Shown: one piece after another, positions 16,097 through 61,690 of the stretch
Layout of the letters: the number at the start of each line of letters is the position of its first letter
Position numbering within the stretch: position 1 is the stretch's first letter
Assembly (NCBI RefSeq): GCF_023156195.1
Contig: NZ_JAKUKA010000001.1
Span: forward strand, 4,340,001 to 4,404,000
Source: Chitinophaga sedimenti
GTDB lineage: Bacteria; Bacteroidota; Bacteroidia; Chitinophagales; Chitinophagaceae
DNA length: 64,000 nt
Direction of reading: 5' to 3'
Translations under genes and position numbers: made by a program
Notes under the pieces: generated by a model
What the model was told of the DNA's origin: nothing
The model's input: the letters and a program-made list of their open reading frames with translations, nothing else
Databases searched by the model: none

Positions 16097-16168
16097 GGTC
16101 TCGTAGTACAATGGATAGGACGAGGGTCTCCGAAGCCCTAGATGCAGGTTCGATTCCTGCCGAGACCA
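16097..16168 (+). tRNA. tRNA-Arg (anticodon CCG)
   Basis: Acceptor arms GGTCTCG (16097) and CGAGACC (16161) pair fully. The anticodon arm is AGGGT-CTCCGAA-GCCCT with anticodon CCG, reading CGG (Arg). The T arm is GCAGG-TTCGATT-CCTGC. The 3' CCA is not encoded. The D arm, GTAC...GGAC, has one mismatch. Confidence 0.93.
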
Positions 16169-30825: not shown

Positions 30826-32357
30826 TTAATAATTTTGGTTCTGTTTTATCCCAGCCACCAGTACATCGTTATTGGGAATCGGCAATACTTCATTTTTATT
30901 TGGTTCGAAGCCCAGCGGGCCTAATACGGCCTCCGCCCTGCCCCAGCGTACCAGATCTACATAACGGTAGCCCTCGAAAGCAAGTTCCAGCTGACGCTCT
31001 GTTACAATTGCCTCGAACAATGCGTTACCCGAAGCGGTTACCTCGCCGAGGTTCGCACGGAGGCGTACTTTTTTAATTCTGTCCGGGCGCGATCTTCATC
31101 CCCCGCGCGATAGTAAGCCTCTGCGGCCATCAGCAGCACATCGGCATAACGTAACAAACGCCAGTTCGTACCATAGTTCAACTCCGCCACCGCACCACCG
31201 GAGCCGTTGGTCTGCCCCTGGTAAGAACCATACTTACGTTGCAGGTAACCCTCAAAATCCCAGCTGGTTGGGTCGGTCCAGTCGCCACCGGCGGCCTTCA
31301 ATTCGGCAACGGACATCACGGTATTCTGGCGGCGTTTTACGTCACCTGCTGCTATGTAAGCATCATACAATGATTTCTTAGGAAGATTAAAGCCCCAGCC
31401 TGCGATAAGCGAATCGGCCGGCGCCTTCTTATAATAATCGGCGCGGGGCCCCATCAGCTGAATATGAATATTGCTTTCCAAAGCGCGGCCATTATCCCAG
31501 GGAAAATTGCCCCAGTCATAAGGCACATTGGACACGTAGTTCACTTCGAACAAAGACTCGATCCCAAATTCGCCTTGCAAGGAGAACACCTTCGCAAAAT
31601 CGGGTTCCAGGTCGTATTGGCCGGACTTGATCACGAGATCGAATTGGGCTGCGGCAGGCGCCCATTTTTTCTGGTACAGCAATGCCTTACCAAGAATAGC
31701 CTGCGCAGTGCCTTTAGACAGCCGAAACCGATCGGCGGCGCTATATTCGCTTTTCAACGGCAAATCAGGTATCGCTTCATTCAGGTCTTTTTCGATCTGC
31801 GCATATACATCCACAGCGGGTGTGCGTGGTGTTTTCTGGAAGTCGCTCAACGAAATGGCTTTTGTTACAACGGGCACATCTCCCCAAAGACTCACCAGTT
31901 CGAGATAGTTGTATGCCCGCATGGCCTTCGCTTCGGCGATAAGCCTTTTGCGCAGGGCGTTTTCAGGTTTTACATTGTTGATTACTAGATTAGCGCGGGC
32001 AATGGTGTAATAGGTCATGCGCCAGGCGCCAAATACCGCTTCATTCTGCGAATCGAAAGTAAAATCATCGAGCGCCTGGTAGCCGGGCTGGTCGCCGGGA
32101 CCGTTACCGCCGGCATTACTTTCATCCGAAGGAAAAGTTTTTACTAAGGTGATACTGGACCATCCGAAATTGTAGTGCTCAGACAGGAAGTCGTACATGG
32201 CAACAGTGGCCTGCATCGCATCTGCATCGGTTTTGTAGAAGCCATCAATAGGTAGCCGCCCAGGAATTTCCTGGTCAAGGAAACTCTTGGAGCAGCTACC
32301 GGTCAGCATGAACGTGGAGAAACTAAGTGCAGCTATTTTAAGAATCGAATTTTTCAT
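30826..32357 (-). CDS. SusD/RagB-family outer-membrane glycan-binding lipoprotein (frameshifted)
   Basis: Surface lipoprotein of about 510 residues with lipobox MLTGSC and the SusD pattern: FLDQEIPGRLPIDGFYKTDADA at the start, TPR helices (IARANLVINNV, AEAKAMRAYNYLELVSLWGDVPVV) and a C-terminal RYADVLLMAAEAYYRAG ... RQLELAFEGYRYVDLVRWG. The frame breaks near 31050. It forms the lid of the SusC-like channel encoded directly upstream and captures oligosaccharides at the surface. Confidence 0.92.
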
Positions 32358-35300: not shown

Positions 35301-35874
35301 CCGCGATTTTCTCCTTTAATGATCACGTTTACACCCAGGAGGGGATCGCCGGTAGTCTCGTCGGTAACGGTCCCGGTTACATGGGCAGACCGAACGGTGT
35401 CGGCCACCTGGTTAAACGACTGGCTGGAACCTCCTTTCGGCACGGACATCAGTAGCAGCGGGTCCTCTTTTTTATCTTTCTGCACAGGCTGCACCGGACT
35501 ATTGGTACGCGGCGCATCTGTTGGCGCGCCGGCACTATGGCATACGTATTCGGCTGCACTACCTGCGCATCCAATCCCAGCGGCGACAGCAAACCGCGCA
35601 ACATATCTTCAACATTCCGGTAGCGGGCGGGATCGAATGACACTTTTACATCGGGGAGTTTCTTTGCCTCGTATAACAGGTCAACTTTATAGTTCTTGTG
35701 AATTTCTTTTAATAAGGCCACGAGCGTTTTCTTTGACTTATCGCCCTGCTTAACGGTATGGGGTGCCCGGGTAAGGGCCAGGTCTTGCGGAAGGGCCGCA
35801 TACGACGAATAACTGATTGCTGCAAAAGCCGTGACAAGCAGGCTTTGCCGGCAAAACAAAATTCGCTTTTTCAT
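32376..35874 (-). CDS. SusC/RagA TonB-linked outer-membrane transporter with N-terminal STN domain (frameshifted)
   Basis: Transporter of about 1,165 residues. After the signal peptide, an STN domain (LLKEIHKNYKVDLLYEAKKLPDV, residues about 50-115) is followed by a carboxypeptidase-like domain (VTGTVTDETTGDPLLGVNVII), the SusC signature LNEIVVVGYGAQKKSLVTGAIS, the plug (PLYIIDGVRAGGIEYLDPSEIASVEVLKDGASAAIYGA) and a barrel ending FGLNVSF. Frame breaks near 35510 and 34570. The STN domain is the part that contacts FecR-type anti-sigma factors, and a fecR/ECF sigma pair lies directly upstream, so the transporter likely also signals substrate presence. Confidence 0.92.
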
Positions 35875-36117: not shown

Positions 36118-36998
36118 TTAGTTTTTTGGTTTAAAAATCAATTGTTGATCTTTCTTCTCAATATAAATATTCATGGTAATTGATAAGGCCTTCGCAAACT
36201 GGTCAATGTCGCGGGCAGACAAGTCACCGCTGATACCCCGGCTGTTCAGGGATTCGTCGGCGATCACTACTTCATAACCAAACCGGGTGCGAATCAATTC
36301 CGTGATATCCGCCAGCGTTGTATTGTCAAAGTGATAGCGGTGGTTGCGCCAGTCTGCGATTTGCTCCACGTTGGTAAACACCTTATGATAATTTTTCCTT
36401 TCTGTTACCTGTACCTCGTCGCCGGGACTCATCAAATACGGCCCGGGACGCTCTTTACCGGTAAGCTGTACCTTCCCTTCTTTAAGCGATACCGTGGTTT
36501 TCTGCGTCAGCACATTGACATTGAACTTGGTTCCCAGTACTTCCACATCTACACTTTCGGTATGTACGATAAACTGTGCATTGCCGGCACCCGGCTTTTT
36601 CGTGATCTCAAAATACGCTTCCCCTTTTAGCCACACGGTGCGGGCTTCGCGGGAATCCCAGACTTCGGGTACGCGGAGCGACGAATTTGCATTCAGGTAC
36701 ACCACGGAACTATCCGGCAGCATCACCTTTTAATTTCGCCATAGGCAGTGGCGATGGTGGTGGTGCGGGAGCAATAGGCCATGTAGCCTAAATAACTACC
36801 CGCGGCAAGCACTAACAAAACCGACATCGCAGCCACAACACGGCGCAGGCGGACGCGCTGCCTGTCGGCAACCGGCGCCGCGGTGATGCCCGCTTCCACA
36901 TTATTCCAGCTTTCCTTCGTCAATTCCTCCGGGACCGGCTTTCGCCTGAACCGGATGGGTAAAGCTCCATCCTTTCCTGGCACGGAACGCTCGTCCAT
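36118..36998 (-). CDS. FecR-type anti-sigma factor (frameshifted)
   Basis: Inner-membrane anti-sigma factor of about 293 residues. A short cytoplasmic part (ELTKESWNNVEAGI), a membrane helix (VVAAMSVLLVLAAGSYLGY) and a periplasmic FecR domain (MLPDSSVVYLNANSSLRVP, WLKGEAYFEI, VEVLGTKFNVNV) are followed by a C-terminal DUF4974-like domain (YHFDNTTLADITELI). The frame breaks near 36730 at an A4 run; A5 restores GEIKKVMLPDS. ATG 36998 preferred over GTG 37025. It should hold the sigma factor encoded just upstream until the SusC STN domain signals. Confidence 0.9.
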
Positions 36999-40452: not shown

Positions 40453-42851
40453 TTATTTCGCGTCTTTCACGTATTTCATCAGCCATTGGTCCATTTCCCA
40501 CAGCATGTGCAGTACACTTTCTTGCGGCATAGCCATGGCTTTCCTGCGGCAGGAATACCAGCCGTACCGTTCCGCCATTGCCTTTAATGGCATTGTACAA
40601 CCTTTCGCTTTGAATCGGGAAAGTACCGGAATTGTTATCCGCTTCACCGTGGATCATCAGCAAAGGCTCTTTAATTTTATCGGCATAAGAGAAGGGAGAC
40701 ATTTTATAATATACCTCGGGCGCCTGCCAGTAGGTACGCTGCTCGTTCTGGAAACCAAACGGCGTAAGCGTGCGGTTGTATGCGCCACTCCTTGCGATAC
40801 CGGCTTTAAAAATGTCCGTATGCGCCATGAGGTTCGCCGTCATGAACGCACCGTACGAGTGGCCACCAACGGCCAGCCGGTTCTTATCCCCCACGCCCAT
40901 GCTGGTAATTTTATCGGCGGCCGCTTCGGCATTCATCACCACCTGCTCAATAAAGTTGTCGTTCGGTTCTTTGTTCCCTTCACCCACGATCGGCATTTCA
41001 GTAGCGTCCATCACCGCGAAACCGCGCGTTACCCAAAAGATCGCGGAGCCGTAACCCACACGTGTGAAGCGATATTGCGAACCGCGCACCTGCGCCGCAT
41101 CGCTCGCACTTTTGTACTCACGGGGTACGCCCACATCAATACCGGTAAACGACCGTCCTTTTCAGGACTGTAGCCTTTCGGCAGGTACAACATGGCCGTC
41201 AGGTCCACGCCGTCTTTGCGTTTATACTTCAGCAATTGTTTCTGTACCCCCAGCAGTTGCGGTTGCGGATGGGTGAAGAAAGTAAGTTGGGTTGATTTTT
41301 TCTTTTTGATATCGCGCAGGAAATAATTCGCCGGCTCCTCCACCGACTCCCGGCTGGTCACGATCTGCAGTTTTGCGGGGTCGAGCACTTCTACGGTAGA
41401 TTCATAGTACGGAGCAGCACTGCGCCACAGTATTTTCTGCTTGCCGGTTTCCAGACCAAAAGACGCCAGGAACGGCATATCACCTTCCGGCGATGCACCG
41501 TCAGACGTCATCAGCAATTCTTTAGCGGGAGAAATATACAGCACGTTCGTACCGAAGCTGCTCTTCACGGTTACCGGATCGCCGGGATCGTTATAACGGT
41601 CGTTATCAGAACGCTCGATCAATGTTACCGGTTCTTTCGCCGGATTAGAAGGATCAATTTTGCTCATCTTCGATTTTTGCAAACTGCGCATGCCTTCGGA
41701 CAACAGCGCCAGTTGCGCATTGCCCCACATGATGCCACGGTAGCGCATGGCAGTACGCGCCAGGGAAACCGGTTCGCCATCAAAAGGCGCCGCCAGCATT
41801 TTTACTTCGTCCCTTATTGCAATACGTTTACGCGGATCGCCGCCGTCCAGCGCCTGCGCCCATACGACAGTAGCCGCTACATCGGCACGCCAGTTAAAGC
41901 TGCGCGGGAAACTCACGGTCGCATCAAAACCAGTCGGACGAATTTCATCCAATGGATTTTCCGCGAGCGTTTTTACTTTTTCGCCGGATACTTTCCAGAG
42001 CTCTATATTGGTCGGGAACCGTTCTGCCGGCACGAGGTACGAATACGGCTTACGTAACCGCTGCACCAGCAGGTATTGCTTGTCTGGCGACGGCCGCACG
42101 GAAGTATAAATACCCGCCGCGCCAATGGTTTGCTCTCCACCTGTGCCAACAATTACCAGTTCTGTCTGAAAATAATAATCGAATAATTTTTCATCATAAG
42201 GATTTTTGAGCAGATCCTGGAAAGTGGCAGCCGGAGCAGCTTTGCCACTGGTTTCCTGTACGGTGGGACCTTCGGCCGCCGGCGGCTTCTGCGGCGGTGC
42301 ACCAATGCCTGCGGGTACCGCCTGCACCAAAATTTTATCATCACTTAACCAGGCCATGGGATTGCCCAGTATCGTATTGATCTTTCTCGTACTTACCTGC
42401 GCGGCCACTTTGGTAACCACATCTACTTTCCATAAAGTGATACCGTTGTTGCCCGTCACCAGGAATGCAAAGTATTTCCCGGACGGCGACCAGCTGATCG
42501 CACCAATGCGGGCACCGGCCGGCAGGCCCGTTACAGCCGACTGCTTTTTAGTCAGCGGGTCTACTACGGTAATACTCGTATAATAACTACTACGGCTTTG
42601 CCCGAACGTAGCGGGATTAATGCGCACACCGGCGAGCCGGTACTCGGGTTGCGACAATTCCTCGATGGTCGGGTAAGTGCTGCGGCCGAGCAGCAGCATC
42701 ATCGTTCCCCTCTCGTTAAAGCTCACCGCGGGTGTTGGCGCCGCCATGGCCGGTCATAGATCTCCGCGGGAGGCCGCTGGTATTTAAGCTCGTCCTGCGC
42801 CCACGCCGGGATGGTTGCGAGCAGCAGGGCTGAAAGCAGTAATCTCTTCAT
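40453..42851 (-). CDS. S9-family prolyl oligopeptidase-type peptidase (frameshifted)
   Basis: Exported serine peptidase of about 798 residues starting at ATG 42851 (MKRLLLSALLLATIPAWAQ). An N-terminal propeller (residues about 50-500) precedes the alpha/beta-hydrolase domain with nucleophile Ser in VGGHSYGAF, Asp in HGEADNNSG and His in PQESHGYAA. Frame breaks near 42755, 41120 and 40540; after the last the protein continues ESVLHMLWEMDQWLMKYVKDAK to the stop at 40453. It likely degrades peptides in the periplasm. Monocistronic. Confidence 0.9.
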
Positions 42852-42895
42852 AAACAAATTTGCTTGTGTAAGCGTCCAAGATAAGGAATATAAAC

Positions 42896-42929
42896 AAAAC
42901 GGGCCACCCGTTTGCCAGGCAGCCCGTTT
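42896..42929 (-). terminator. Intrinsic terminator after SGNH giant gene A
   Basis: Arms AAAACGGGC (42896) and GCCCGTTT (42922) flank a 17-base loop; A-rich sequence to the left gives the T run on the minus strand. The GCCCGTT core is the same as in the terminators of the two paralogous genes upstream. Confidence 0.65.
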
Positions 42930-42951
42930 CGTATGCGATCATTTCGCCTGG

Positions 42952-45900
42952 TTACTGTTTTATCAGTCTTAGCCTGATATTTCCATCATCTACCAGCACG
43001 TAATATACACCCGCAGTCCACTCCGACCCGTCGATGACGGAACCGGCTTCGTAGCCACGGTCGCGGTATTTCAGCTGTCCATTACTATTAAATACATCCA
43101 CGTTGTGCACGCCGGCCGGCAAACCCAGGATGCGGAAGTTGCCGCTGGTGGGATTGGGAGCAAGTTGCACCGGCTGTACACTTTCTTCCTGAACAGATGC
43201 GGCAAACGCTAACCTGGCACCGGATCCCGGCGTTACGGTAATGCTTGCACTGTTGAAGCTGCGAGATGCGGAGTCCTTCAACTGCAGGCGGTAGTAGGTG
43301 GCAGCAGTCACCGTAAAGTTATCGTTATAACTATAACTGGCGCCTGTAAGCGTACGACCAGCAGCATTCTGCGTGTTGACGGTCGTCCATGACCAGCCAT
43401 TGGTACTGCGTTGCAGCAACCATTTAGAAGATTCTTTTTCTATCGTCGTCGTCCAGGAAACATTGGGTTTACCCGCCACCAGTAATGCTGTGAAGGAACC
43501 CAGGTTGATCGGCTGCAGCTGCACCGGATCCGGCGCGGCTTTCACGACAGGACTGTAGGTGGCTGCGCCGTTCGTCGTTTCCATTTTCAGACGGTAGAAG
43601 AATGTTTGCGAAGGCACCAGCGGATCTTTGTACGCATAGCTGCGCGTGGTGGTGCTGGTTCCTGCGGCGTTGACGAATGAGAGAATTTGCCATACGGAAG
43701 AATCTGAACTACGCTGCAACACAAACTTAGCCGTATTGGTTTCACTCGCGGTACTCCAGGCCATGTATGCATCATCGTAATCGCGGGTAACGGAGAAGCT
43801 GGTGAGGTTGAACGGACCTGTTGCATAAGCCAGCATTACGGAAGCGCTGTAGAATACGCGGCGTGCGGTGTCCTCCATCTTCAGGCGGTAGTACACGTTT
43901 TGCGTATAAGCCGTACTATCCGTATAGTTATAATTGCGTGTGGTGGTGCTGTTTCCGGCAGCGGCCACAATGCGGGCGCTCGTCCAGCTGGTGTTGTTAA
44001 AGCTCCGTTCTACCGTAAACTGCGAAGTATTCTTTTCGCGGGTAGTACTCCATTGCACGTACGGGAAACTGCCAACTTTCGTTACGGTTGGACCGGCGTA
44101 TGTGAACGGCTGTGCGTACAGCGGGTCCGGCTGAATTTTAATACCGGCGCTGTAGGTGTGCACACCGGATGTGTCTTCCATGTGCAGGCGGTAGTACCAT
44201 ACCTGCTGCGTTACATTCTTATCGGCATATGTATAATTAGTTACTGCAGATGCGGTACCAGCGGCGGTTACATTGCCTCTTGCGCTCCAGGCAAGCGAAT
44301 CCGCACTACGCTCCACGATGAAACGCAGGGAACCATTTTCGCTGGAGGTGGACCAGCTTAGGTTGCGCTGATCATAATCCGCAGCGCCGCTGAAGGCGGT
44401 CAATACAAAAGGCAGCACCAGTTTCTCCAGCTTCACGGAATCCGTGTAGAAGGAGCGCTGGCTGGTATCCTCCATCTTCAATCTATAAAACACATCCTCA
44501 TTAAACACACTGTTATCGGTGAAGTTGTACTGGCGTAAGGTGTTACTGTTACCCGCAGCCGAGACTGTACCCGCCGTCGTCCAACTGGTAGCAGCCAGGC
44601 GGCGTTGCACGGTAAAGTGCAGCGTGTTCTTTTCTTTAGTCGTACTCCATTGGAGATAGGGCAAATTATTCTGCCGGCTAACGGCTGGGCCGCTATACGT
44701 AAACGGCTGCGCATACGCGGGGTCCGGCTGTACCTTTACGCCGGCGGAATAAAAGTGACGGGAGGCATTATCTTCCATATGTAAACGATAGAAGAAAACC
44801 TGCTGCGGTACGGGCTTATCAACATACATATAATAGCGCGGCGTGGAAGAAGTACCCGTTGCATTCACTGTACCCACGGTACTCCAGCTCAGCGAATCGG
44901 CACTTCTTTCCAGGTAGAATTTAAGCGCGTTATATTCGGAGCTCGTTTTCCAACCAGCTTTACGCTGGTCCCAATCGGCGGAAACACTAAAGCTGTCCAG
45001 CACAAAAGCGGGTTGCGGCTTCAGGAGTTTGATGGAATCGCTATAGAAACTGCGGTTCAAACTATCTTCCATTTCAAGTCGATAATGCACATCGTAACTA
45101 AAGCGGCTGTAGTCGGCGGAGGTGTAGTTACGCAACGTTGCAGAACGACCGGCAGCCGGCATCGTATCGATATTTACCCAGCCTGTGCCAGCGCTGCGTT
45201 GTACTACAAACTGCCATGCATACTTTTCTCTTTTGGTTTGCCAGCTGAGCTGAGCAGCGGTGTCCGTACCCAGCACCGCGAAGTTTTGCCAGACAAAAGG
45301 TTTCCAGTAACCGCTATCGGCCAGTACGTAAATACTGTCTGTAAAGTACTGCCGGCCGGTACTATCGGAAAAATGCAGCCTGTAAAACCGCGCGGTGTCT
45401 GATGTTAAAGTATCTGTATAATTGTATGTACGCTGCGTGGTCGAGTTCCCGAATGCCTGCACATCGGCGATCTGCTTCCAGGACGTGGTAGCGGTTTTGC
45501 GTTGCACTTTGATACGCCCAGTTTGGTTTCGTACGAGGTGCCCCAGTTGAGACGTACCGTATCGTATCCCGGGGCGCCGTTGAAATACGTGAGGGCGTAG
45601 GGTGCAGGCTGCGCATCAAACTTAACTCCTTTCGTATAAAAAAGGCGGTTGCGTGTATCGCGGAGTTTTAAGCGGTAATAGATCGCGGTGGTCTGTGTGC
45701 TGTTATCAGTATATGTGTAATTCAGCGTGGCAATATTACTGCCACCTGCATTTACCACACCGATCGAATCCCAGGCCAGCGAATCAACGCTGCGCTGCAC
45801 GATGTATCTCGACATCAGCCGTTCGCCGGTGGTGGTCCAGCTGACCTGCCGGCCACTACCAGCGGCCGTTACGCCGAGCAACTGCAAACGGATCGGTCCT

Positions 45901-46607
45901 TTACACAGCGTGTCCGGAATACCTTCTGCCGCCACGCGATCAAACATGATTTTGTGTGCGGCATTGTTCAGGTGAATGCCATCACCATAAGCATAAGTCG
46001 GATTGATCGTACCATCGCTATTCGCAAATCCTGTCCAGAAGTCGATGTACTTTGCGCCGAAGCGGGTGGCCAGCCAGTCGCGCATATCCATTAATGGCTG
46101 CCGCGGCGCTCCCCACATCTGGTCGCGCGGCTGTGTGGAAGTAACCCATACCGCGATGTTCATCGAATCGGCCGTAGCCCATATGCGGTTAAAGTTCGCC
46201 TGCTGCTCCGATAACGGGTAGCCGGAAGCCGCGTCGTTAGAAGGCAGGCTGATTAAAATCGCATCGGGACTGTACTCATTGATCGCGCGGGTGATGTTGA
46301 TTGACGGATCGGGCGAGGGACGAGAATCTCCGGGAATCACCGGCGGTTTGTACCAGGTAGGTTGTACACTGTAGCTGTTAATGCCACTGGAAGCAATGTT
46401 GTACACGCGCCAATCCGGGTGAATGGCTTCCAGGTGGCGTTTAAGCCGGCGCCCGAACGAGCTGTCGATGTGCGATGGGCCGGTCCAGCCGGCAGCAGTG
46501 GATGAACCCACAATCACCAGTCTGAAACCTTTGTCGGTGCAGACCTGGGCGTACGTGGAGGCGGTGGTGAGCAATGCAAGCAGCACCAGCGCATAAAATT
46601 GTTTCAT
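42952..46607 (-). CDS. Giant secreted SGNH-hydrolase with ~9 repeats and T9SS sorting domain (gene A, frameshifted)
   Basis: Protein of about 1,218 residues. Signal peptide (MKQFYALVLLALLTTASTYAQ, cleavage after AYAQ-like site) then an SGNH/GDSL hydrolase domain (residues about 25-250): nucleophile Ser in IVGSSTAAG, oxyanion Asn in PSNDA and catalytic Asp/His in GDGIHLNNAAH. About nine fibronectin-like repeats of about 95 residues follow, each with a core W.T..E....F.VQRS and ending FYRL.MED..... The end is a type IX sorting domain (LAPNPTSGNFRILGLPAG...YYVLVDDGNIRLRLIKQ). The frame breaks near 45505. Likely an extracellular or surface carbohydrate esterase; substrate unknown. Confidence 0.88.
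43230..45009 (-). repeat. Three-copy super-repeat of ~199 codons inside gene A
   Basis: Repeats in gene A alternate between two types, one starting like PFVLTAFSG and one like QPFTYAGP, forming a double unit. Copies begin at about 45009, 44412 and 43815, exactly 199 codons apart, and the third runs to about 43230. Similarity is visible in the DNA as well as in the protein, indicating fairly recent tandem duplication of the double unit. Confidence 0.75.
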
Positions 46608-46781
46608 GCGGAACAAGTTTTGAGGCTCAATAAAAAATCGAAGTTTCCGGGGTTCTTTAACAGGTATGGAAAAATTATTCGTCTAACGAGATTGGGGCAA
46701 TACGATAAAATTACGCCGACAATCTACCCTAGCATATAGCACATTCATGTGATCACCCTTAATTTTTCTTCATTTCACGGT

Positions 46782-46817
46782 AAAAAAGCCCGTTCAGCCG
46801 AATGGAGCTGAACGGGC
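46782..46817 (-). terminator. Intrinsic terminator after SGNH giant gene B
   Basis: Perfect 10-base stem GCCCGTTCAG / CTGAACGGGC with an A6 run on the left (T run on the minus strand), 24 bases after the stop. Confidence 0.85.
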
Positions 46818-46840
46818 CAAGGTGTTAACCAATTTATCTG

Positions 46841-49800
46841 CTATAGCTTTATCAGGCTGATGCGATACCTGCCCTTACCGAGCACTATGTAATAGGCGCC
46901 GGCGGGCCATGCAGAAGCGTTGATTTCCTCTCCGCGATACGCCTTATTGTAATACACCTGTACGCCGCGGCTGTTATACACTTCCACGTCCACACCGTTT
47001 GCAAAGCCATTTACCTTAAAGCTGCCACTCACCGGGTTGGGGAACGCAAACACTTTACCAGTGGGCTGTTGCGGGCCGTCAGGCAGGGCCGTGATGAGGG
47101 CCACCATTTTCAGTGCGTTACTGAGCGTGCGGGCGCCGGCTTTATCGATCATCACCAGGCGGTAGTATACCCAAACGGTGCCGGTGTTGTATTCGTCAGT
47201 AAAGCTGTAATTCACGACTACCTCGGAATTACCGGTAGCCGCTATTACCTTAACGCTCTTCCAGGTGGCTGAATCGGTGCTGCGCTCAATGTCGAAGCTG
47301 GCCGCACCGTTTTCGCTGCTGGTGCTCCATTCCGGGAGGCGCGCCGTGTTCTGGCCTTTCTTTAACGTAAAACTTTTCAGGTTGAAGGCGTTGCGATAGC
47401 CGAGGTCCGGCGTCAGGACCAGTTGCTGACTGGTGAAATCACGGCCATCTTTGTCGTGCGCGGTTACGCGGTACGTGGCAGGTTTCTCCTGCGTTTCTAT
47501 GTCGGTATAACTGTATTCGGAAGCTACACCTTTTGCAGGCACCACTGCGATAATATCCCAGCCCGCTTCCCGACTGCGGCCGTTGACTGCGGTTGGTGCT
47601 TTGCGCTCTACATAAAAACTATCGAGGTTCCATTCTTTTGAAGTAGACCAGTTGATCACCTGTTTCTCCTTTTGCTGCGCCACGGTAAAGGAAGACAAGC
47701 GGACCGGGGTAATATAATTGGTATCAGACGGCAACGACAGTTCGCGCGAATTGAACGTGCGGGCGGATGCGTCTGTCATGACGAGGCGATAAGTTAATGC
47801 GCCGGTCAGGTGCGTTTCATCTGTATAAGCATATGTTTTTCCGGTCATGCCCGCTGCCGGTACGGTGGTTACCTGTTCCCAGGCGCCATTGCCCTGCCTG
47901 CGTTCAATCGCAAATGTTTTAGTACGGAACTCTTTGGAGGTTGTCCAGCTCAATATCTGCTTCTTATACTCGCGGGCAGCTGAAAGTTCCGCATAACGGA
48001 CCGGCGTAATAAAGTTGGTGTCCGACCTTACGAACCGCTCATCCGACAGGAAGGCACGCCCAAATACATCCTTCGCCTGGATGCGGTAATACGTTTCCAG
48101 TTCGGAATAAGCCGTATCCGTGAATTGATATTCACCGGGACCAGCCGCCTTTACACTATCAATAGCGGTGAGTTTACCGCCGATGATACGCAGGATGTTA
48201 AACTGTGCCAGTTTAAATTCTTTCGTCGTGTTCCAGGAAATTACCTGTTTGTCCAGTTCGCGCCTTACACCGTAAGTGGCGTACCGAACGGGGGTAACGT
48301 AGTTGGTGTCCATTTTCACCCAGGCTTCGCCGCTTCTTTCGGAGCGATTAAACTTGTCGAATACCGTGATGCGATAGTAAGTTTCCTGGTATTTGTAGGC
48401 CGTGTCTGTATAGGCATAGGTCCGGCCCTGCATTGCGATACCGGCGGCGGCTACGGAATCAAGTATTTCCCAACCCAATCCGAAGTTCCTTTCAATGCGG
48501 AACTTCACGGTATTCCATTCTTTGGACGTGCTCCAGTCGATGGTTTGCTGGTTACCATCGCGTTTTGCAGTGAAGGCGGCCAGTTTATAAAATCGGGTAT
48601 AGTTGGAGTCTACGGCCAGCGCTAACACCGGTGACGTGAAGCTGCGTCCATATTTGTCTACCATCTGAACGCGGTAGCTGATATTTTTCTCGCTGTAGGA
48701 AGTGTCGGTTGCGGCATAATTGCTTAACGTTTCCGACGTACCTTTTGCGGGCAGTGAATCTATCTTAGTCCAGCCGGTGTTTGCCACGTTGCGCTCCAGC
48801 AAATAATGACTCATACGCCATTCTTTGGAAGTGCTCCAGGTAATGGATTGACTGGTAAGGTTGCGTTCCGCTGCGAGACCCGCCAACCGGTAAGGATTAG
48901 CGAAGTTGGTGTCTGCGACGATTTTCACCGTGCCTACCAGGAAGGGCGTGCGGTTCAGCGAGTCAATGAGACGCAGGCGGTAATGCACGTTTTTAGTGGT
49001 GGTGGAAATATTGTAAGTATAGGTGACGCTGTAACTGCGACCGGTTGGGGCAGTGCCCGCTGCTACCGTATCGATGCCTGTACGCCAGGTGGTGCCGTCA
49101 TCGCTGCGGTCTACCACGTAGCGGGCGGTTTTCTTTTCGACGGAAGTGCGCCACTCCAATGTTTGCTGGTTGGCGTCCTGTGTGCCGGTGAAGGATTGCA
49201 GGCGGTAGGGTTGGGCGTACATGCTGTCGGGAGTTACCAGTAACTTTTCAGCAGCGTAAACGTGACGCCCGGCGCTGTCTTCTACGCCTATCTGATAATA
49301 CAACGGAATTTGTTGTACACGCAAATCAGTGTGTGTATAATCCCTGATATCGGTCGAGTTACCGGCAGCAGGTTTTGCGCCGATAATATCCCACTTGAAG
49401 CCGTCAGCACTTCTTCTGATAACAAATCGTAGCGTCTTTGTTTCAAAGGCAGTCTGCCAGTTTAAAACAACATTACCGAAATCGGCAGCAGCCTCCCATT
49501 TATTATATTTAGCGTGACGCGTGCCACCGGGTAGTGTTACGGCCTGAGTATAAAATACACGACCGAGTGTATCTGCCGCAAAAACTTTGTATTGTACGTC
49601 CTTTTCGTAAAATACGACGTCATAGAAATCATCCCTCGACGAATGTGCTCCATTGTTATATTGCTGTGATCTTTTGGAGCCAACTGTATCCCATGTCAGC
49701 CCATTATCAGCCGAACGAAGCAGCTGCGTGTAGTTCAGGCCTTTTCTGATCGTCGTCGATAGGGCAACATATATTGCCCGGTCGCTATTAATGCTGGCAG

Positions 49801-51123
49801 TCAGCGAATAAATTCTCCAGGGATTAAAATACATTGTATCGGGCACCACTTTCAGCGCAGTTGAATATCGTTTCACCCCGGAGGAATCTTCTGACTGGAT
49901 CCTATACCACTTCACTTTATCAGGTGATGCGTCATCATCAGATTTGTACACGTAAGGCAAGCCAGGTGTGAACGACTTTACATCGACCCACTGCGCAGAG
50001 TCAAGACTACGCTGTATCAACATGGTTTTCAACTTCCCGATGGTGGGCGTTGACCAATCCATTTTAACCAGGTTAAAATCAGCAACAGCTTTGAATCCTG
50101 TAACCTGATAAGGTTGCCAGGACGACGGCGGTGTGTAACCGGTAACAGACACTTCATACCCACGATTGGCATGATCCATTGCTACAATACGGTAATAATA
50201 AGCGTTATGTGTTGTCACCAGCTGGTAAGTATTGCCTGCATATGCAGGCCCTTTCGCGGGAATATTCACATGGTCGACCAACGTTTGCCAGTTATCACCA
50301 TCGGAACTGGCTTGAACATAAAAGTAGCTGATACGGCGTTCGCGCGTGGTTTTCCAATTAAGTGACACACTATTGCCATTATGCAGCGTTGCCGTAAAAT
50401 AAGCCGCCTCAGAAGCTCCTTTACAAAGCGTATCCAATATTCCCGCTTTCATGACCCTATTGGCCATTAAACGATGGGCCTTATCATTAAAGTGGATGCC
50501 ATCGCCGCTTCCCAAACTGTCGATGATGGTACCATCATCCTTCGCGATCCCCGTCCAGAAATCAATACACTTAGCCCCAAAACGCGTTTTAAGCCAGTCA
50601 CGCATCTGCACCAGTGGCACGCGGGAGGCGCCCCACATCGTATCGCGACCGGTCGTAGTGGTTACCCAGAGCGGCACATTCATACTGTCGCACGTCGCCG
50701 CTATCCGTTCAAAGTTCGCTTTCTGCTCATCCAGCGTGTATCGTGAGGACGCATCATTGGAAGGAAAATTGACGATTACCGCATCGGCCTTCAATGTATT
50801 CAGTGCGTAAGAAATGTTTTTTCGGGGTTTGGCGCCGGACGCACATTGGTATTTACATACCAGGAAGGCTGCACGTTATAAGTGACCGTTCCTGCTACCG
50901 CGAGGTTATGCACGGTGGTAAAAGGACTGTTTTCGTCAGAGAAATACTTTTTGACAATATTTACCCACGCGCTGTCGGGTTTACTGGCGCCTGTTCCCGC
51001 GGCGGTAGAACTTCCCAAAACCACGATCGAATAAGTCCTTCCCCAACAGTTGAAATTTTGGGCATTAAGAGAGGTAATACCGGCGATCATCATCACCAGC
51101 AAAAGTGTAAAAAATTTCTTCAT
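46841..51123 (-). CDS. Giant secreted SGNH-hydrolase with ~11 repeats and T9SS sorting domain (gene B, frameshifted)
   Basis: Protein of about 1,427 residues, paralogue of the genes on both sides. Signal peptide (MKKFFTLLLVMMIAGITSLNA), SGNH domain with VVLGSSTAAGTG, NFPSNDASS and GDGIHFNDKAH, then about eleven repeats of about 95 residues. In the later repeats the joint reads DTNYITPVRL and the core WSTSKEW or WTTSKEF. The type IX sorting domain is AFPNPVSGSFKVNGFANG...YYIVLGKGRYRISLIKL. One frame break near 50810. Its C-terminal two repeats and sorting domain are nearly the same as in gene C. Confidence 0.88.
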
Positions 51124-51200
51124 GCGTTGCGTTTATGCGCCGGGAAAACAACGGTATAGGGGTGCATTCTCCGGTTATTCACTAATTGATAAGCTGCGTT

Positions 51201-51233
51201 ACTTGGTTCTTGCACAGGGATGGTTAACAATAA
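51201..51233 (-). promoter_or_regulatory. Upstream element of gene B shared with gene C
   Basis: ACTTGGTT (51201) and GGTTAACAATAA (51222-51233) lie 78-110 bases upstream of gene B. The same two words in the same order occur upstream of gene C at 57344 and 57430. Nothing similar was found upstream of gene A. Regulatory function is inferred. Confidence 0.4.
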
Positions 51234-51304
51234 TCGGAGGCGAAATTACAAACTATGGGACGCCACATACTAACATATTCGTGTTACCTAATTGGGTATA
51301 AATG

Positions 51305-51332
51305 AAAAAGCCCGTTCGAAATGAACGGGCTT
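51305..51332 (-). terminator. Intrinsic terminator after SGNH giant gene C
   Basis: Perfect 9-10-base stem AAGCCCGTTC / GAACGGGCTT with loop GAAAT and an A-rich left side (T run on minus strand), 6 bases after the stop. Confidence 0.85.
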
Positions 51333-51338
51333 AAGTCA

Positions 51339-54300
51339 TTATAATTTGATCAGACTGAGGCGATACCTGCCTTTATTCAGTACAATGTAGTACATGCCTG
51401 CGGGCCACGCTGAGGCGTTGATTTCCCCGCCACTATATTGCTTGTTATAGTACACCTGTACACCAAGACTGTTAAACACTTCCACCTGCACACCATTTGC
51501 AAACCCGCTGATCTTAAAGCTGTTGCTTACCGGGTTCGGGAAGGCGGCTACTTTGCCGGTGGACTGCTGCGGATCGTCTGGCAGTGCGGTAATGAGGGCA
51601 ACCATTTTCAGTGCGTTGCTAAGGTTGCGCGCACCATCTTTGTCGATCATCACCAGGCGATAGTAAACCCAGATGGTGCCGGTGTTGTATTCGTCGATGA
51701 AGCTGTAATTCACCGCAACATCTGAATTACCGGTAGCTGTTATCGTTTTGATGCTCTTCCAGGCTACGGAATCAGTACTGCGTTCGATCTCGAAGCTGGC
51801 GGCGCCATTTTCGCTGCTGGTACTCCATTCGAGTAATCTTGCCGCACTTTGCGCCTTCAGGGTAAAGTTTTTCAGGTTGAAGGCGTTGCGATAACTCAGG
51901 TCCGGTGTGAGGATCACATTCTGACTGGTAAAGTCGCGGCCCAGTTTGTCAAGTGCCGTGATGCGGTAAGCAGTCTGTTTATCCTGTGCCACCACATCAA
52001 CATAAGCATAAGTAGAAGAACCACCTTTTGCCGGAAGCACCGCGATAATTTCCCAACCATCTTTGCTTACACGCCCGTTGGTTGCAGGAATTATCTGGCG
52101 CTCCACGTAGAAGCTGTCGATGTTCCATTCGTTGTCGGTGCTCCAGTTTAATATCTGTTTGTCTTTTTGCTGTTCAACTACCAGTGTGCCGAGCTTAAAG
52201 GTTTCGGTATAGGTAGGATCCGCAGCTACAGACACTTCCGCGCTATTAAACGTACGTGCATCTTTGTCGGCCATCACCAGTTTATACGTAACGGCCAGCT
52301 GCGTGTAAGCGGTGTCCGTAAATGTATAATCAGCAGGAACGCCGGCAGCGACTTTTACGCCAATTTCCTTCCAGGTACCGTTTTCTTCTTTACGTTGAAT
52401 GCTGAAATCTTTTGTCCGGAATTCTTTGCTGGTGCGCCAGTTCAGTTGTTGTTGCAGGTTGCTGCGTACGGCAGTGAAGCTGGAAAGCACGAACGGTTCT
52501 GCATAGTTTGCATCTGCCGCAATATCCACCTGCGCACTGTTGAAAGTACGGCCGTCTCTATCCATTCCCACCAGCCTGTAAGAAGTGGGCTGCGACGAGT
52601 AGGAAGCATCTGTAAATGCATAAGAACGTGGTACACCCGCTGCTATCAACGTATCGATGCTGTTCCAGTTGCCTGAAGCAACTTTTCGTTGAACGAAAAT
52701 GTGCCGGAGACGGAACTCTTTTCCCGTATTCCATGCCAGTTGTTGCGTCAGACTGTCGCGCGTTACGACAAAACCCTTCACCACAAAAGGTTGCGTGTAA
52801 TTTGTATCCGCATCGAGCGGCTGCACATCACTATAAAACACCCGCGCATCCACGTCTTTCATACCGATGCGATACGTTACCGCACCCGGCCTGTAAGTAG
52901 TATCAGTATAACTATAATTACCCGCGCCTGTTGCCGGCAATGCCGCGAACTGTATCCAGCCGCCATTTTGCAGGCGTTGGACCAACATACTGTCGCCACG
53001 GAACTCTTTGCTGGTGTTCCAGTTCAGTTGTTGCGCCGCGCCATTGCGGGCTACCACGAAGGAAGTCATCTCAAATGGCTGATCATAATTTTCATCGCCT
53101 GCCAACACGAGTGTATCCCTTCCGAAATGCTGGTTATGAATATCCGTCAACCGTACGCGGTAGGTTGTGGCATCCTTACGATAGATCGTATCACGATAAA
53201 CATATTGATAACCGGCACCTTGTGCGGGGAACTGTTGCCCAGCTTTCCATTCGCCGGCCTCCAGCCGTTCTATATTGATAAATTTGACGTTTGCTTCCTC
53301 CGTAGACGTAAGCCGCACCACCTGCACCAGGCTGTCGCGTAGGACTTCCGTTGTGCTGGAAAAACGCATAAAGTTCAGATCATCTCCCGGCTGGCTTTCG
53401 CCAATAAAGTGGGTGTAACCCAACAGGTCATCTACATACAGGCGATACAGCATGGAGTATGCTCTATATACCGTATCGATATGGGTGTAATCCGTTCCCG
53501 CCCCGGCCGCTGGCACAAGGCCATTGTGTCTGTAACACCATTCACGGTAGCGGTCAGTATGTATCGCACGATGTTTGTCTCCTGTGTGCTATGCCACACC
53601 ACTCGTTGCGTAGTATCGGTGCGTTGCACGGCAAAACCGGTAATATTGTATGCAGGTGCTCGTCCAGAGTCTGCCGCGAGTTTCGGCAATGAAAAATAAA
53701 AATATTCGACCACTGGGAAAGCCCTTTAATACGATAGTAAGTTGTATAAGGATGATAGGAGCTGTCTGTGATGGAATACATTTTATCCGATCCTTCATCA
53801 GATATGGCGGCCACAGGAACGGTTGACCAGTTAATGCTGTCTGCGCTGTACTGCAAACTGTAGTTAGCCATCATCACGGAACGGCCCATCGTCCAGGTAA
53901 TTACCTGTTTATGCTCCTTACGCGCGACTAAACCTCCCGTAAATTCAGCCCTCTCTACTTTTACCGTGTCGGCGGCCAGTACATACTGCGGCCCCTCCAG
54001 CAGCTTACCATCCAGATCCTCCGCCATCCAGCGGTAGCTGGTCTGCGGACGCCGGTAAACAGAATCGGAGAAGGTATAGGTTTGACCGGAGCCGGCTGCA
54101 GGCCATATCGCTAAGCGCTTCCAGGCAGAATCGTCCCGCACTTCCGCGATAATGTTTTTCAATCCCCGCTCTTTCCAGGTCGTGATGCGAAGACGTTGTA
54201 TATCGTACTGGCGCTCAACCTGGGGAGTAGCAGTAGTAAAAGCCGAATTGTATATCGTATCCGCTTCCAGTAACACCGGAGTACTATAATACCCGGAACC

Positions 54301-57280
54301 CGTGTGATCATATGCCAATACCTGATACCGGACCGTATCTGGCCGGAAAATGGTATCAACATAAATATAATTGTTGCCGCTGCCTACTGCTGTTACAGTA
54401 TCCACGACTTCCCACCCCGTATTAACGATGCGTCGAATCTCGTAACAGTCAATTTTAAATTCCTTTGTGGATGTCCAGGTCAGTTGCTGCACTTTACCCT
54501 GACGTTCCACGTTCAACGGGCCCATTTCCATATAACCATTGAGGCTCGTATCGTTTCCTAGTTCCAGTACAAAAGCGGTATCAGTTACACCAAAGCGGTC
54601 GTCGATCAGCAGCCGATACGAGATGTGCCCTGCATAATAAAGTGAATCCATCACCTCGTATACACCTCTTCCCTTAGGAGATATTGTACGTACCGGCTCC
54701 CAACCATAGTCCCTAAAACGTTCCACGCGCATGTTTACGAGGTTCCGCTCCCCATCAGTGACCCAAGATAGGTACTGCCTGTCGAAAGAGCGTATTAAAT
54801 TAGATGCAATAATCTTATAATCAGCAACCGACACGCTACTGTCCATGGGCACCTCAACGATATTGCTGATATATTCACCGCCAAAGTTATCAGTCGTTAA
54901 CACCCGGTAAGATTTTTCGCGGGGTTCGAAAGTTGAATCATTAAAAGAATAAGCCGTACTAGCGCCAGTAGATTCCTGCGCTACGGCAATGGTCTTGATC
55001 GTGGACCAGTTTTCTGCGCCCACCTTACGTTGCAGTTGATGTTGCGCTACGTTAATTTCCATATAAGCATTCCAGGCCAACGTGGTACCGGTCCTGAAAA
55101 GCTGGTACGATTCATACGCCGCCGCATTACCGGTTTCCGGGTTTAGGATAACACGGTTGCTCACGCTGTGTACGTTGAAGGCATCGCGGACGAGGAGGCG
55201 ATACTCAGCCAGACCGGGAATGTAAGTGGTATCCGTGAAGGAATACGAACTATTGGAACCTGTTGCGGCAATGGTCGATAGCTCCGTCCATGCCTGCGAT
55301 CCCGGCTGCCGGCGCTGGATAATATAGGCAGAGATATTCACCTCACGCGGATTATACCACCCCATGATCTGCCTGGCCCCTGAGCGCATAACCCAGGGCG
55401 CTTCCAGGTGGGACACGACTATACGCGCCATGTCGGCGGACAAAGAAAAAAACAGGCAGTGTATCATGCTTATCATACGGACTGGTGACGATCACTCTAT
55501 AATCAATTGCCAGTCTGTTATACACAGAATCCGTAAACGTGTAACTCGCCTTCGACCCTTCGAAAGCAATTGACCCCGCATGCTCCCAGTCGCCAGTCGC
55601 TTTACGCTGCAACGTAAGTGCTGCAATGTTACGCGCATCGGCCACACTAAAATCTACTTTCTGCACATCATAGTCGCGGTGAGCAGTGTATTGCGGGTTG
55701 CGGTAAACAGGGCGCTGCGTGTTCAGATCAATACCGGTATTGGCATAGCTGTATGCGAACAAACTGTCATAAATATCCACCGGCTGAATCATGTAATTCA
55801 CCGCATAGGGACGGAACGCACGATCAGTATAGGTGTAACTGCGGGTGCCATTTCCCAGGCTCCTTACCGAATCGACGTATACCCAACTATTTCCTTCCTG
55901 GCGGAGCAGCCGGTAAGCACGGATGTTTCGCTCGTTGGCTGTTTCCCACCAGAGAATACGCGTGTCGTTGATACGGGTAACACCTGTACGGGTCATTGTT
56001 ACGGCAGAAGGTTCTTTATATATAGTAACCTGCCGACTGGCTGTATATTTAATACTCCCCGCCCAACTGCTGTAGTGCAGGCGGTAAGTCCCCGCACCAA
56101 AACCAGCGGGCAACTCCACGCGATAACTGGCGGTATCATATCTGCTTCCTTTTGCATTGATACCCGACACCAGGTGTAGCCATTGGCCAGCCAGATTATA
56201 TTCCACCCCCATGGTATCCAGTTGATATTCGCTGGAAGTGGCCCACTCCAGGAACATTTTCCCGCTTTCATTTTTCGCCTGCATACGGGAGATCAGTACT
56301 TCTGAAGCATCCGGCACCTGTATACTACCGGTATAGAATACACGGTTTTTAGTGTCCGTGATCGCCAGTCGCACGGGGTAAGCACCAATACCCGAGGCCG
56401 TATAGTTCATCCAGGAATTGGGCTGCTGCTGCATGGGAATATTTCCCGTCATACTATACCAGGTGCTACCACTTTGATATTGCAACTGATAGTGCTTTAC
56501 CGCGCGCTGGCCCACATGCCATAAGAAATCGGCATATCCGGCGCTGGTGTACCAGCCTCTGAAAACCGGCATTCGTACAGGACCAGCACACATCGTATCC
56601 GGGATTGCTTCGTTAAACACACGTTGCGCCATTATGTAATGGGCAGTATTGTTCAGGTGAATCCCGTCCGCATGGCTGTAAGCAGTATTAATAGAACCGT
56701 CCGCATTGGCGAACGGACTCCAGAAGTCAATGTACCTGTCACGAAAACGGTCCAGCAACCAGTCGCGCATATCGAATAATGGCTGACGCGACACACCATA
56801 CATTTGCGTACGCGGCTGCGTGGAAGTAACCCACACGGGCACATGCAAGGAATCTGCCGAGGCTACAATGCGCTGAAAATTAGCCTGTTGCTCCGCCAGT
56901 GTGTAACTATTGATAGCGTCGTTGGTCGGGAAGTTCACGATCACCGCGTCGGCCTGATAGCCGATCAAGGCTTTTGTGATGTTCTTCGCGGTATCCGGTA
57001 CCGGCCTGCCATTCGGCGGCGTGTACCAGCTCGGTTGCGCGGCATAGGTAGTAGTACCGGCCACGGCCAGGTTGATCACCCGGTAATTGGCGTTGATGAA
57101 CTGGAAGTTCCGGGTTAAGATGCTCACCCAGGCGCTGTCACGCTCCGTGGGGCCATCCCAGCCGGCAGCCGTGGAACTTCCGAGTACAACTACAACAAAT
57201 CCTTTGTCGGTACAGGTTTGCGCAAAAATGGAGGATACGCCGGCGGTCAGCGCCAGCAAAAGGGCAAAAATTTTCTTCAT
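51339..57280 (-). CDS. Giant secreted SGNH-hydrolase with ~17 repeats and T9SS sorting domain (gene C, frameshifted)
   Basis: The longest of the three, about 1,980 residues. Signal peptide (MKKIFALLLALTAGVSSIFA), SGNH domain with VVLGSSTAAGWDG, NFPTNDAIN and ADGIHLNNTAH, then about seventeen fibronectin-like repeats. Repeats near the hydrolase are strongly diverged (for example WHVGQRAVKHYQLQYQSG), while those near the C-terminus are uniform (NWNTSKEFRG, AWNTGKEFRL, NWRTSKEFRT). Ends with a type IX sorting domain (AFPNPVSNSFKISGFANG). About three frame breaks (near 55400, 53700 and 53520). ATG 57280 gives the signal peptide directly; an upstream in-frame start at 57304 is less likely. Confidence 0.88.
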
Positions 57281-57441: not shown

Positions 57442-57498
57442 CGGGAACGAAAGTAATAAAGAAATATGGCGAAGTCCTAACACCTTCATGCTATAAAG

Positions 57499-57529
57499 AA
57501 AAAAGGGGCGGAGTAATGAACTCCGCCCC
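57499..57529 (-). terminator. Intrinsic terminator after the acyltransferase gene
   Basis: Perfect 10-base stem GGGGCGGAGT / ACTCCGCCCC, loop AATGA, A run on the left (T run on minus strand), 10 bases after the stop at 57539. Confidence 0.88.
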
Positions 57530-57538
57530 ATGGCTATT

Positions 57539-58674
57539 TTATACTTTGATGTAAATTTTCTTTTTATCAAGCCACCAGCCCAACAGCCAGAAAAGCCCCA
57601 CATGAAACAACGCAAATAACAGGGAACCATTCAGTTCGCCTCCAATGGGCTTAAACACGGTTTCATAAAACCAGCTGTAAAAACCTTTTCCGGGAACGGG
57701 TCGAATAAGTCCATAAATTTTTACCAGCACACCGGACATCACAAAGATGAACAGCGGATTTTTCCCGAACACCTCAAAAAGTACCAGCCCTTTTTCCATT
57801 GCATAATTTCTATCAGGTACACAAAGATGCAAAGCAGGATGGTGGCCAGTCCAACTGTCAGCAATACATAGGAACTGGTCCATATTTTTTTGTTGATGGG
57901 GAACCAGATATCCCAGATGTACGCCAACACAATGAATACCAGCCCGGTAAGCGCAAGGCGCAGGATCGTATTGCTGTTCTTTCCCTTTTGTTGCAGATAG
58001 TCGCCTACAAGGTAGCCGCAAATCACGTTCACGATGGCAGGCAGGGTGCTGAGCAAACCTTCGGGATCAAAGGCAACGCCTTCACCATGGTACATGTGGT
58101 TTTCTCCGAGGATGGCTTTATCGATAAACAGTCCGGCATTGCCTTCCAGGCTATAAGGATCGCCCTGACCCAAAGCCAGCAGGATGGCCCAATAGCCGAA
58201 CAGCAACAACAGCGATGCGTAGATGGACCCTTTATGCTTCAGGTAATGAATAATCAGCGCTGCAAAGCCGTAACAAAGTGCAATACGCTGCAACACACCC
58301 ATGATGCGGAGTTTCGACAACGGCTTCATTACCAGCTGATCGTCCGACCAGGCAACAAAGGGGAACCAGTTGAGGATTAAACCGATGAGGAAGATAAGTG
58401 CCGTGCGTTTGAAGATCTTCTGCAATACAGCGGCGTTACCGAGCGCCTCGTACTTTTTGAGTGCGAAGCTCATGGCGTTGCCTACCGCGAACAGGAAAAA
58501 CGGGAACACCAGGTCGGTGGGCGTCCAGCCGTGCCATTTGGCATGGCCGAGCGGTGCATAAATATGTGCCCAGCTGCCGGGGTTGTTCACCAGTATCATA
58601 CAGGCAACGGTGAGGCCGCGGAATACGTCCAGCGACAAAAAACGGTTTGAAGATGACGTGGGTAGTTGGCTCAT
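57539..58674 (-). CDS. DUF5009/HGSNAT-like membrane acyltransferase (frameshifted)
   Basis: Multi-helix membrane protein of about 378 residues. It begins MSQLPTSSSNRFLSLDVFRGLTVA, where the SLDVFRG motif and the following NPGSWAHIYAPL, HAKWHGWTPTDLVFPFFLF segments are typical of the family related to heparan-alpha-glucosaminide N-acetyltransferase. The catalytic His of that family would be in GHAKWHG. The frame breaks near 57800; the protein continues GLVLFEVFGKNPLFIFVMSG to the end. ATG 58674 is chosen because a longer frame to 58809 would contain the terminator of the preceding gene. Probable sugar acetylation across the inner membrane. Confidence 0.85.
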
Positions 58675-61463: not shown

Positions 61464-61690
61464 AGCTCTCGATTTAAATAAAGACGTTTTTTCTGTTGCG
61501 TGGACTCGTTCCTAATTATGTGCCTCGATGATTTAAAGTTAAGAAGAATTCGTGTCTGATGAACACCTCTTTAGGGGGATTATTTTTGGGTAGCTATTTT
61601 GGGTGTTTTGTGAGGGGATGGGCGATTGAATGGAAGAGCTGGGTGGGAGACATTACACTTTCGTGTTAGGAAGATTGCAATATTGCGGCG

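Follow-up and report, generated by a model that had tools for sequence, protein, structure and literature searches.

Three adjacent giant genes of Chitinophaga sedimenti encode candidate SGNH esterases with FN3-like repeat arrays and type IX sorting tails

What might three giant genes do that stand one behind the other on the minus strand of a Chitinophaga sedimenti contig? They occupy positions 42952-57280 of a stretch of 64,000 nucleotides (contig NZ_JAKUKA010000001.1, positions 4,340,001 to 4,404,000; hereafter the window), and each encodes an apparent signal peptide, an SGNH hydrolase domain, an array of repeats resembling fibronectin type III (FN3) domains and a type A tail of the type IX secretion system (T9SS). 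An earlier note on this DNA had described such a same-strand trio, and its coordinates, strand and domains were borne out by Pfam, NCBIfam and a repeat model (Table 1). We favour the reading, with a probability of about 0.55 and arguing from sequence, that the products are secreted serine esterases of the SGNH fold, probably acting on glycan O-acetyl groups and carried on flexible FN3-like stalks. The Sec signal peptide would take the protein out of the cytoplasm, and the type IX system, through the C-terminal tail, would move it across the outer membrane. The N-terminal SGNH domain would hydrolyse an ester by means of the Ser in GSST, the Asp and His in DGIH and the oxyanion Asn in P[ST]ND, the likeliest ester being an O-acetyl group, or one like it, on a polysaccharide. 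The 9-17 beads that separate the enzyme from the tail may be a flexible spacer that keeps it at a distance from the cell surface, or may make for a long secreted protein.

The Pfam profile PF13472 matched genes 1 (E 8.9e-14) and 3 (E 5.9e-12) above its cut-off. In gene 2 the match falls into two halves flanking a frame break, each singly below the cut-off; in the genome search the larger half, together with its in-frame neighbours, reached 33 bits against a cut-off of 32.9. The block residues Ser, Asn, Asp and His were all present in genes 1 and 3 in the alignment, and in gene 2 they are spread over two pieces, GSSTA in one, PSND and DGIH in the other. The Gly of block II is likewise in place. 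Block III of SGNH enzymes usually reads GxND; here it is P[ST]ND. All four block residues are kept in 57 of the 68 aligned SGNH rows and a QPR motif in 65/68, with TGR in gene 2 at the place where QPR usually stands. In two of the 11 exceptions, gene 2 and a relative (L059), the aligned row simply does not include the serine stretch; the others are domains 2 and 3 of L052 (His lost), L094 (Asp), L081 (Asn) and the first domains of five two-SGNH proteins, where Asn is changed and in two cases His is lost as well. These counts depend on the alignment, Asn lying one column earlier in L063 and L065.

A structural model of the SGNH domain and first repeat of gene 3, built from two sequences of the window only, had low confidence (pLDDT 54.2, pTM 0.48) and matched SGNH enzymes, best of all the acetyl xylan esterase PbeAcXE (Z 14.8, root-mean-square deviation 3.3, 176 residues aligned). 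It was followed by the acetyltransferase PatB (14.5), Bacteroides acylhydrolases (14.0-14.1), a polyvinyl alcohol (PVA) esterase (14.1) and TesA (about 13), and the carbohydrate esterases Axe2 (12.8) and CE3 (12.3) lay within a range of 12.2-12.8 for CE3/Axe2 structures. In Foldseek alone a designed SGNH scaffold and TesA ranked first. These matches support an SGNH fold for the modelled domain, and not any particular substrate.

Comparison with congeners gave a clue to whether the domain is maintained. The order ABC-F, DUF5009, SGNH genes, S9 peptidase is identical in two other Chitinophaga genomes (G015 and G164), which have two SGNH genes against three here. The second SGNH gene of each is orthologous to gene 3, and all three copies carry 9 repeats. 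In the SGNH domain, gene 3 shares 93% and 87% identity with the two orthologues, with nonsynonymous divergence (pN) of 0.044 and 0.077, against 66% and 72% identity and pN of 0.228 and 0.185 for repeats plus tail; the S9 peptidase gene gave pN of 0.118 and 0.107 in the same two comparisons, and synonymous sites were near saturation. These values indicate purifying selection on the gene 3 SGNH domain, which appears more constrained than the rest of the protein. Motif, fold and selection together support the prediction of catalysis. Pieces of genes 1 and 2 share 25-49% identity with the congeners' first SGNH gene, and the SGNH domain of gene 1 is 65% identical to that of the first G164 gene, with which it groups in a tree (99/93); gene 2 stands beside them with weak support (88/43). 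Over their final 270 residues (51342-52151 and 46844-47653) genes 1 and 2 are 76% identical, against 55% in the C-terminal parts of their SGNH domains, which suggests exchange between the two copies.

How widespread is such an enzyme? With the SGNH domain of gene 1 as single query, 25 of 59 genomes, the own genome counted, matched at E <= 0.001, two of them barely (E 5.5e-4 and 6.6e-4); matches were found in 23 of the 35 other congeners and in one of 23 genomes from other genera of the order. A profile, A2, detected relatives in at least 31 of 195 genomes of the family (E <= 1e-15; 20 of 101 genera) and in at least 20 of 395 genomes of the phylum (E <= 1e-25; 17 of 171 genera), counts that are lower bounds, with up to 15 and up to 7 candidates per genome scored, respectively. 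Two scans of genome contigs found no relative, and a plasmid search returned one distant GDSL protein only, in Spirosoma. Together, the searches point to an SGNH subfamily with the signature GSSTA, P[ST]ND, QPR and DGIH that is frequent within the genus and of scattered occurrence across the phylum.

The genome count proposed in the earlier note gave the same distribution for homologues with the same modules. At the level of the family, the impression that such proteins stand alone fails; in full-text searches that covered few subscription papers, we recognised no paper or named function for the architecture. The idea of a unique, unprecedented system was rejected, because homologues are common and orthologues occupy the same place in two congeners.

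The relatives vary in what accompanies the SGNH domain. Twenty congener loci hold 21 SGNH proteins with 0-12 repeats and one to three SGNH domains, and the tail model is matched by 16 of the 21, two weakly (18-19 bits). A Pfam scan of 23 relatives (22 of the 34 SGNH proteins of other genera and the congener protein L058, some cut by contig ends) found PKD (PF22352) in 9 and Por_Secre_tail above cut-off in 16, and some carry Ig, PA14, NHL or GH43_C2 domains. PF10091 (glycoamylase) was found in two, Abhydrolase_2 and Peptidase_S9 in one each and above cut-off, and CBM30 above cut-off in one and below it in another. Seven proteins of other genera (L072-L075, L092, L098 and L100) scored 194-290 bits with an A2-derived model, with a T9SS tail above cut-off in L072-L075 and L092; they share the SGNH subfamily of the window genes but have PKD domains as spacers or an extra enzyme domain, and no characterised member was found among them. 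The SGNH-PF10091 fusions lie at 7330-9453 of L098 and 5282-7378 of L100, in genomes of other families, and no T9SS tail was found in them. PF10091 is the Pfam counterpart of GH144. GH144 is described as related to beta-1,2-glucanases (PMC12102758).

Because the SGNH subfamily is fused to PF10091 and CBM30 in other genera, a glycan O-acetyl ester is the likeliest substrate, judged by analogy of domain company. The glycan substrate proposed in the earlier note is in this way supported indirectly, by fusions to PF10091 (2/23), CBM30 (1/23) and alpha/beta hydrolases (2/23). Several observations weigh against the favoured reading. A second enzyme domain was above cut-off in just four of the 23 scanned relatives, none of them in this genus, and for that reason the glycan link is indirect. 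The predicted fold does not part carbohydrate esterases from thioesterases, PatB-type acetyltransferases and polymer esterases. Gene 2 lacks QPR and may differ in activity. No polysaccharide-degrading enzyme was detected among the ten neighbouring open frames scanned, and the SusC/SusD/FecR set, a possible utilization locus, is 6-12 kb distant from gene 3, with the S9 and MacB genes in between.

The structural list also bears on an alternative that we consider unlikely, namely that the SGNH domains act extracellularly on lipids or synthetic-type polyesters, as lysophospholipases, thioesterases or PVA-esterase-like enzymes do, with the repeats as an ordinary spacer. The structural matches include TesA-type thioesterases and the PVA esterase (Z 12.2-14.1), and sequence matches to solved structures include TesA and 9otv, a lysophospholipase L1-like esterase titled putative polyesterase. 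The fusions of this SGNH subfamily to a glycoside hydrolase-type domain and to CBM30 in relatives nevertheless point to glycans.

The signal peptides were assigned by eye from the sequence. TIGR04183 matched all three C-termini (36.3, 30.9 and 29.6 bits against a cut-off of 23) and has 28 matches above cut-off in the whole genome; the Pfam model Por_Secre_tail was above its cut-off in genes 1 and 2 and slightly below it in gene 3 (25.1 against 27). The earlier note had seen in these proteins surface-displayed esterases on long stalks. Motif, fold, sorting domain and selection all speak for a secreted SGNH esterase on a long FN3-like stalk.

The repeat model, trained on 21 window repeats, counted about 17, 11 and 9 repeats in genes 1, 2 and 3, mostly of 85-103 amino acids; one repeat each in genes 1 and 3 was pieced together across a frame break, and the first repeat of gene 1 is weak (3.3 bits). 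We call them FN3-like because the Pfam profile fn3 (PF00041) had no match at E <= 0.01 in any window piece, so that the profile search suggested in the earlier note recovered the SGNH and T9SS models and not fn3. The fold itself emerged from the structure prediction of a repeat triplet of gene 3. The model consists of all-beta beads (mean pLDDT 90.1, pTM 0.52), and its high pLDDT with low pTM fits firm beads and loose joints. VIA-align placed it with tandem FN3 domains, at Z 11.3-13.3 among the 50 matches listed, with 177-275 residues aligned and a deviation of 6.5-15.8 over two or three beads; according to the caution given with the tool, a Z below about 13 may for repeats reflect just a common arrangement. 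A match of F5_F8_type_C_2 in gene 2 (38 bits) was set aside, as no single stretch passes alone and the repeat model covers the same stretch. Repeat matches (E <= 1e-6) number 35 in the genome itself; 33 fall within this locus and the remaining two adjoin T9SS tails. In the loci of other genera seven proteins have a single repeat copy; L096 has one copy after its SGNH domain. We infer that the arrays look like expansions of a domain found singly elsewhere.

Tandem arrays of FN3-like or bacterial immunoglobulin-like (BIg-like) domains are typical of adhesins, and the giant adhesin SiiE occupies the first three rows when Foldseek matches of the triplet are sorted by E-value. One might accordingly ask whether the proteins are mainly adhesins or contact fibres, with surface binding by the repeats and the SGNH head and with catalysis lost or of lesser importance. 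In five relatives with two SGNH domains (L061-L065) the first domain has lost the oxyanion Asn of block III, in the one with three (L052) domains 2 and 3 have lost His, and copies of the gene 1 and gene 2 type diverge fast. Against this stand the block residues kept in all three window copies, the stronger constraint on the SGNH domain of gene 3 than on the remainder of the protein, and the second domain, intact in each of the five two-SGNH relatives, so that we hold this explanation to be no likelier than action on lipids or polyesters. Relatives seem to pair active and degenerate SGNH domains within one protein.

Are the three genes expressed together? Strong hairpin-plus-T sites were found on the gene strand in all four gaps around and between the genes. 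Terminator matches overall were near chance (19 against 16.1 expected, standard deviation 3.9), and the top four are these intergenic ones. Because terminator-like sites fill the four gaps on the gene strand, each gene probably forms its own transcript. Sigma-70-type promoter matches in the window were near chance (20 against 16.6, standard deviation 3.8). A palindrome followed by a box, TARCA-N6-TGYTA plus 22-23 nucleotides plus TANNTT, occurs in the window solely ahead of genes 1-3, with 0.25 occurrences expected from 20 random trials of like composition; if one mismatch is allowed, the palindrome by itself occurs no more often than chance would give (8 against 6.4). Palindrome and box also precede the two SGNH genes of G015 and the two of G164, with a mismatch at one of these four sites. 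Inspection by eye had picked out the motif before testing at the three genes of the window, at the two in G015 and at the first in G164, and these counts are not independent; the site at the second G164 gene is the sole one that came from the scan alone. In 762006 bases of relatives' loci there were 14 such sites, including these four, where about 3 were expected at the chance rate of the window. A mismatch is found in seven of the remaining ten and, since none of these ten directly precedes an SGNH gene, the element would seem to belong to this locus, not to the whole SGNH family.

Some further occurrences were seen. In another congener, palindrome and box stand at 8419-8434 of L080, about 300 nucleotides ahead of an unrelated open frame of 1094 amino acids that looks RHS/YD-like by eye and matched nothing in Pfam at 1e-5. 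The gap preceding the ABC-F gene contains a palindrome with one mismatch both in the window (61653-61668, with no TANNTT box at 20-25 nucleotides) and in L071 (16862).

The three genes could form a small co-regulated, separately transcribed family of SGNH surface enzymes whose stalks, graded at 9, 11 and 17 beads, hold the same kind of esterase at differing distances from the cell, with the fast-diverging genes 1 and 2 and the degenerate SGNH domains of relatives supplying substrate recognition. We regard this as rather unlikely; were it true, stalk length and pairing with dead enzymes would be a tunable feature of T9SS enzymes.

The conserved upstream neighbour suggests a distinctly improbable alternative: that the proteins are acetyl transferases or esterases which edit the cell's own surface polysaccharide or peptidoglycan, perhaps with the adjacent HGSNAT-type acetyltransferase. 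PatB, a peptidoglycan O-acetyltransferase that shares this fold, is level with the top structural match, and the HGSNAT/DUF5009 gene keeps its place in three genomes. It is, however, separated from gene 1 by a strong terminator-like site; in genome G020 a four-repeat SGNH gene adjoins the ABC-F gene and no DUF5009 match was found in the 15 kb there; and the predicted T9SS export suggests action outside the cell. Elsewhere in the surroundings, three matches to RNA genes at 42000-62500 were all below the gathering score, and a tRNA search of the window found a single tRNA, at 16097, far from the SGNH locus.

Frame shifts interrupt all three genes. Gene 1 has at least three, genes 2 and 3 have one apiece, which makes about 5 in 13.9 kb; where the second piece of gene 1 gives way to the third, the repeat continues in a third frame. 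The breaks were left as they stand. Proteins of G015 and G164 were matched to the window. Among six neighbours compared, four (ABC-F, DUF5009, S9 peptidase and a gene of 533 amino acids) matched in two or more frames and two in one frame: MacB, over 393 amino acids, and, at the edge of the window, a glycosyltransferase-like gene, over 179 matched amino acids. Frame changes number about 7 in 8.7 kb of these neighbours. As neighbours also break, the genome is 80.5% complete against 97-100% in the 35 congeners listed, and the congener orthologues are unbroken, the breaks are most likely assembly indels. That the genes are decayed pseudogenes with real frame shifts, as their number of breaks and the two single-frame neighbours might suggest, is very improbable and was rejected, given the breaks, at higher density, in four of six neighbours, the low completeness, the unbroken orthologues and the strong constraint on gene 3.

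Table 1. Positions of the features discussed (window coordinates unless a congener locus is named)
Feature	Positions	Strand	Remarks
Gene 1	51339..57280	-	SGNH, ~17 FN3-like repeats, T9SS tail; at least 3 frame breaks; searched as three pieces
Gene 1 open frames	55352-57280, 53554-55476, 51339-53516	-	
Gene 1 signal peptide	57221..57280	-	read by eye
Gene 1 SGNH domain	56567..57217	-	GSSTA, PTND, TQPR, DGIH
Gene 1 array	51582..56509	-	~17 FN3-like repeats; a weak first repeat, another divided by frame breaks
Gene 1 T9SS type A sorting domain	51342..51581	-	
Gene 2	46841..51123	-	SGNH, 11 repeats, T9SS tail; one frame break; searched as two pieces
Gene 2 open frames	50800-51123, 46841-50794	-	
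Gene 2 signal peptide	51061..51123	-	read by eye
Gene 2 SGNH domain	50405..51060	-	GSSTA, PSND, DGIH; TTGR replaces TQPR; frame break near 50800
Gene 2 array	47084..50410	-	11 repeats
Gene 2 T9SS type A sorting domain	46844..47083	-	
Gene 3	42952..46607	-	SGNH, 9 repeats, T9SS tail; one frame break; searched as two pieces
Gene 3 open frames	45405-46607, 42952-45507	-	
Gene 3 signal peptide	46548..46607	-	read by eye
Gene 3 SGNH domain	45882..46544	-	GSSTA, PSND, TQPR, DGIH
Gene 3 array	43213..45890	-	9 repeats, one split by frame break
Gene 3 T9SS type A sorting domain	42955..43197	-	
Terminator-like hairpin, ahead of gene 1	57505..57529	-	
Terminator-like hairpin, gap between genes 1 and 2	51308..51332	-	
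Terminator-like hairpin, gap between genes 2 and 3	46787..46818	-	
Terminator-like hairpin, after gene 3	42894..42932	-	
Promoter-like palindrome, upstream of gene 1	57478..57493	-	22 nt before TANNTT box
Promoter-like palindrome, upstream of gene 2	51271..51286	-	22 nt before TANNTT box
Promoter-like palindrome, upstream of gene 3	46737..46752	-	one mismatch; 23 nt before TANNTT box
Palindrome and box in congener loci	L051 7724, 12553; L071 12544, 7778		ahead of the SGNH genes of the locus
HGSNAT/DUF5009-type membrane acetyltransferase	57542..58668	-	upstream neighbour, kept in G015 and G164
S9 (prolyl oligopeptidase family) peptidase	40456..42860	-	downstream neighbour, kept in G015 and G164
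SusD; SusC pieces; FecR	31038-32357; 32376-35494; 36118-36726	-	same strand as genes 1-3

T9SS cargo is rich in giant proteins whose job is unknown, and this family makes a testable case. The SGNH subfamily has its own signature, is found across the phylum and carries varied spacers, from 0 to about 17 repeats on an otherwise similar enzyme, so that it could show what role long repeat arrays play in secreted enzymes; it may also be a source of new polysaccharide esterases. Among known systems, the fused acetyl-feruloyl esterases of Bacteroidetes reportedly belong to families CE1 and CE6, which differ from those found here, and we know of no FN3-like stalk in them. These multimodular enzymes (PMC7110780) are likewise multidomain esterases of Bacteroidota. 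The enzymes described from a fungal-cell-wall locus of Chitinophaga pinensis (PMC10449523) are multi-module and extracellular; they carry SpI signal peptides and, with a single exception, a C-terminal T9SS domain. They are glycoside hydrolases with carbohydrate-binding modules (CBMs), whereas in the window genes SGNH domains are combined with arrays of FN3-like repeats. FjoAcXE-like acetyl xylan esterases (PbeAcXE, 7toh; CspAcXE, 7toj) lead the structural list of gene 3, tied with others, and they share with the window genes the SGNH fold, the Ser-Asp-His triad and the oxyanion Asn (PMC9105624). They have a GNSI motif at the serine and an N-terminal CBM-like domain packed on the SGNH domain, while all three window genes have GSST and a predicted SGNH domain directly after the signal peptide, without such an N-terminal domain and with FN3-like repeats and a T9SS tail added.

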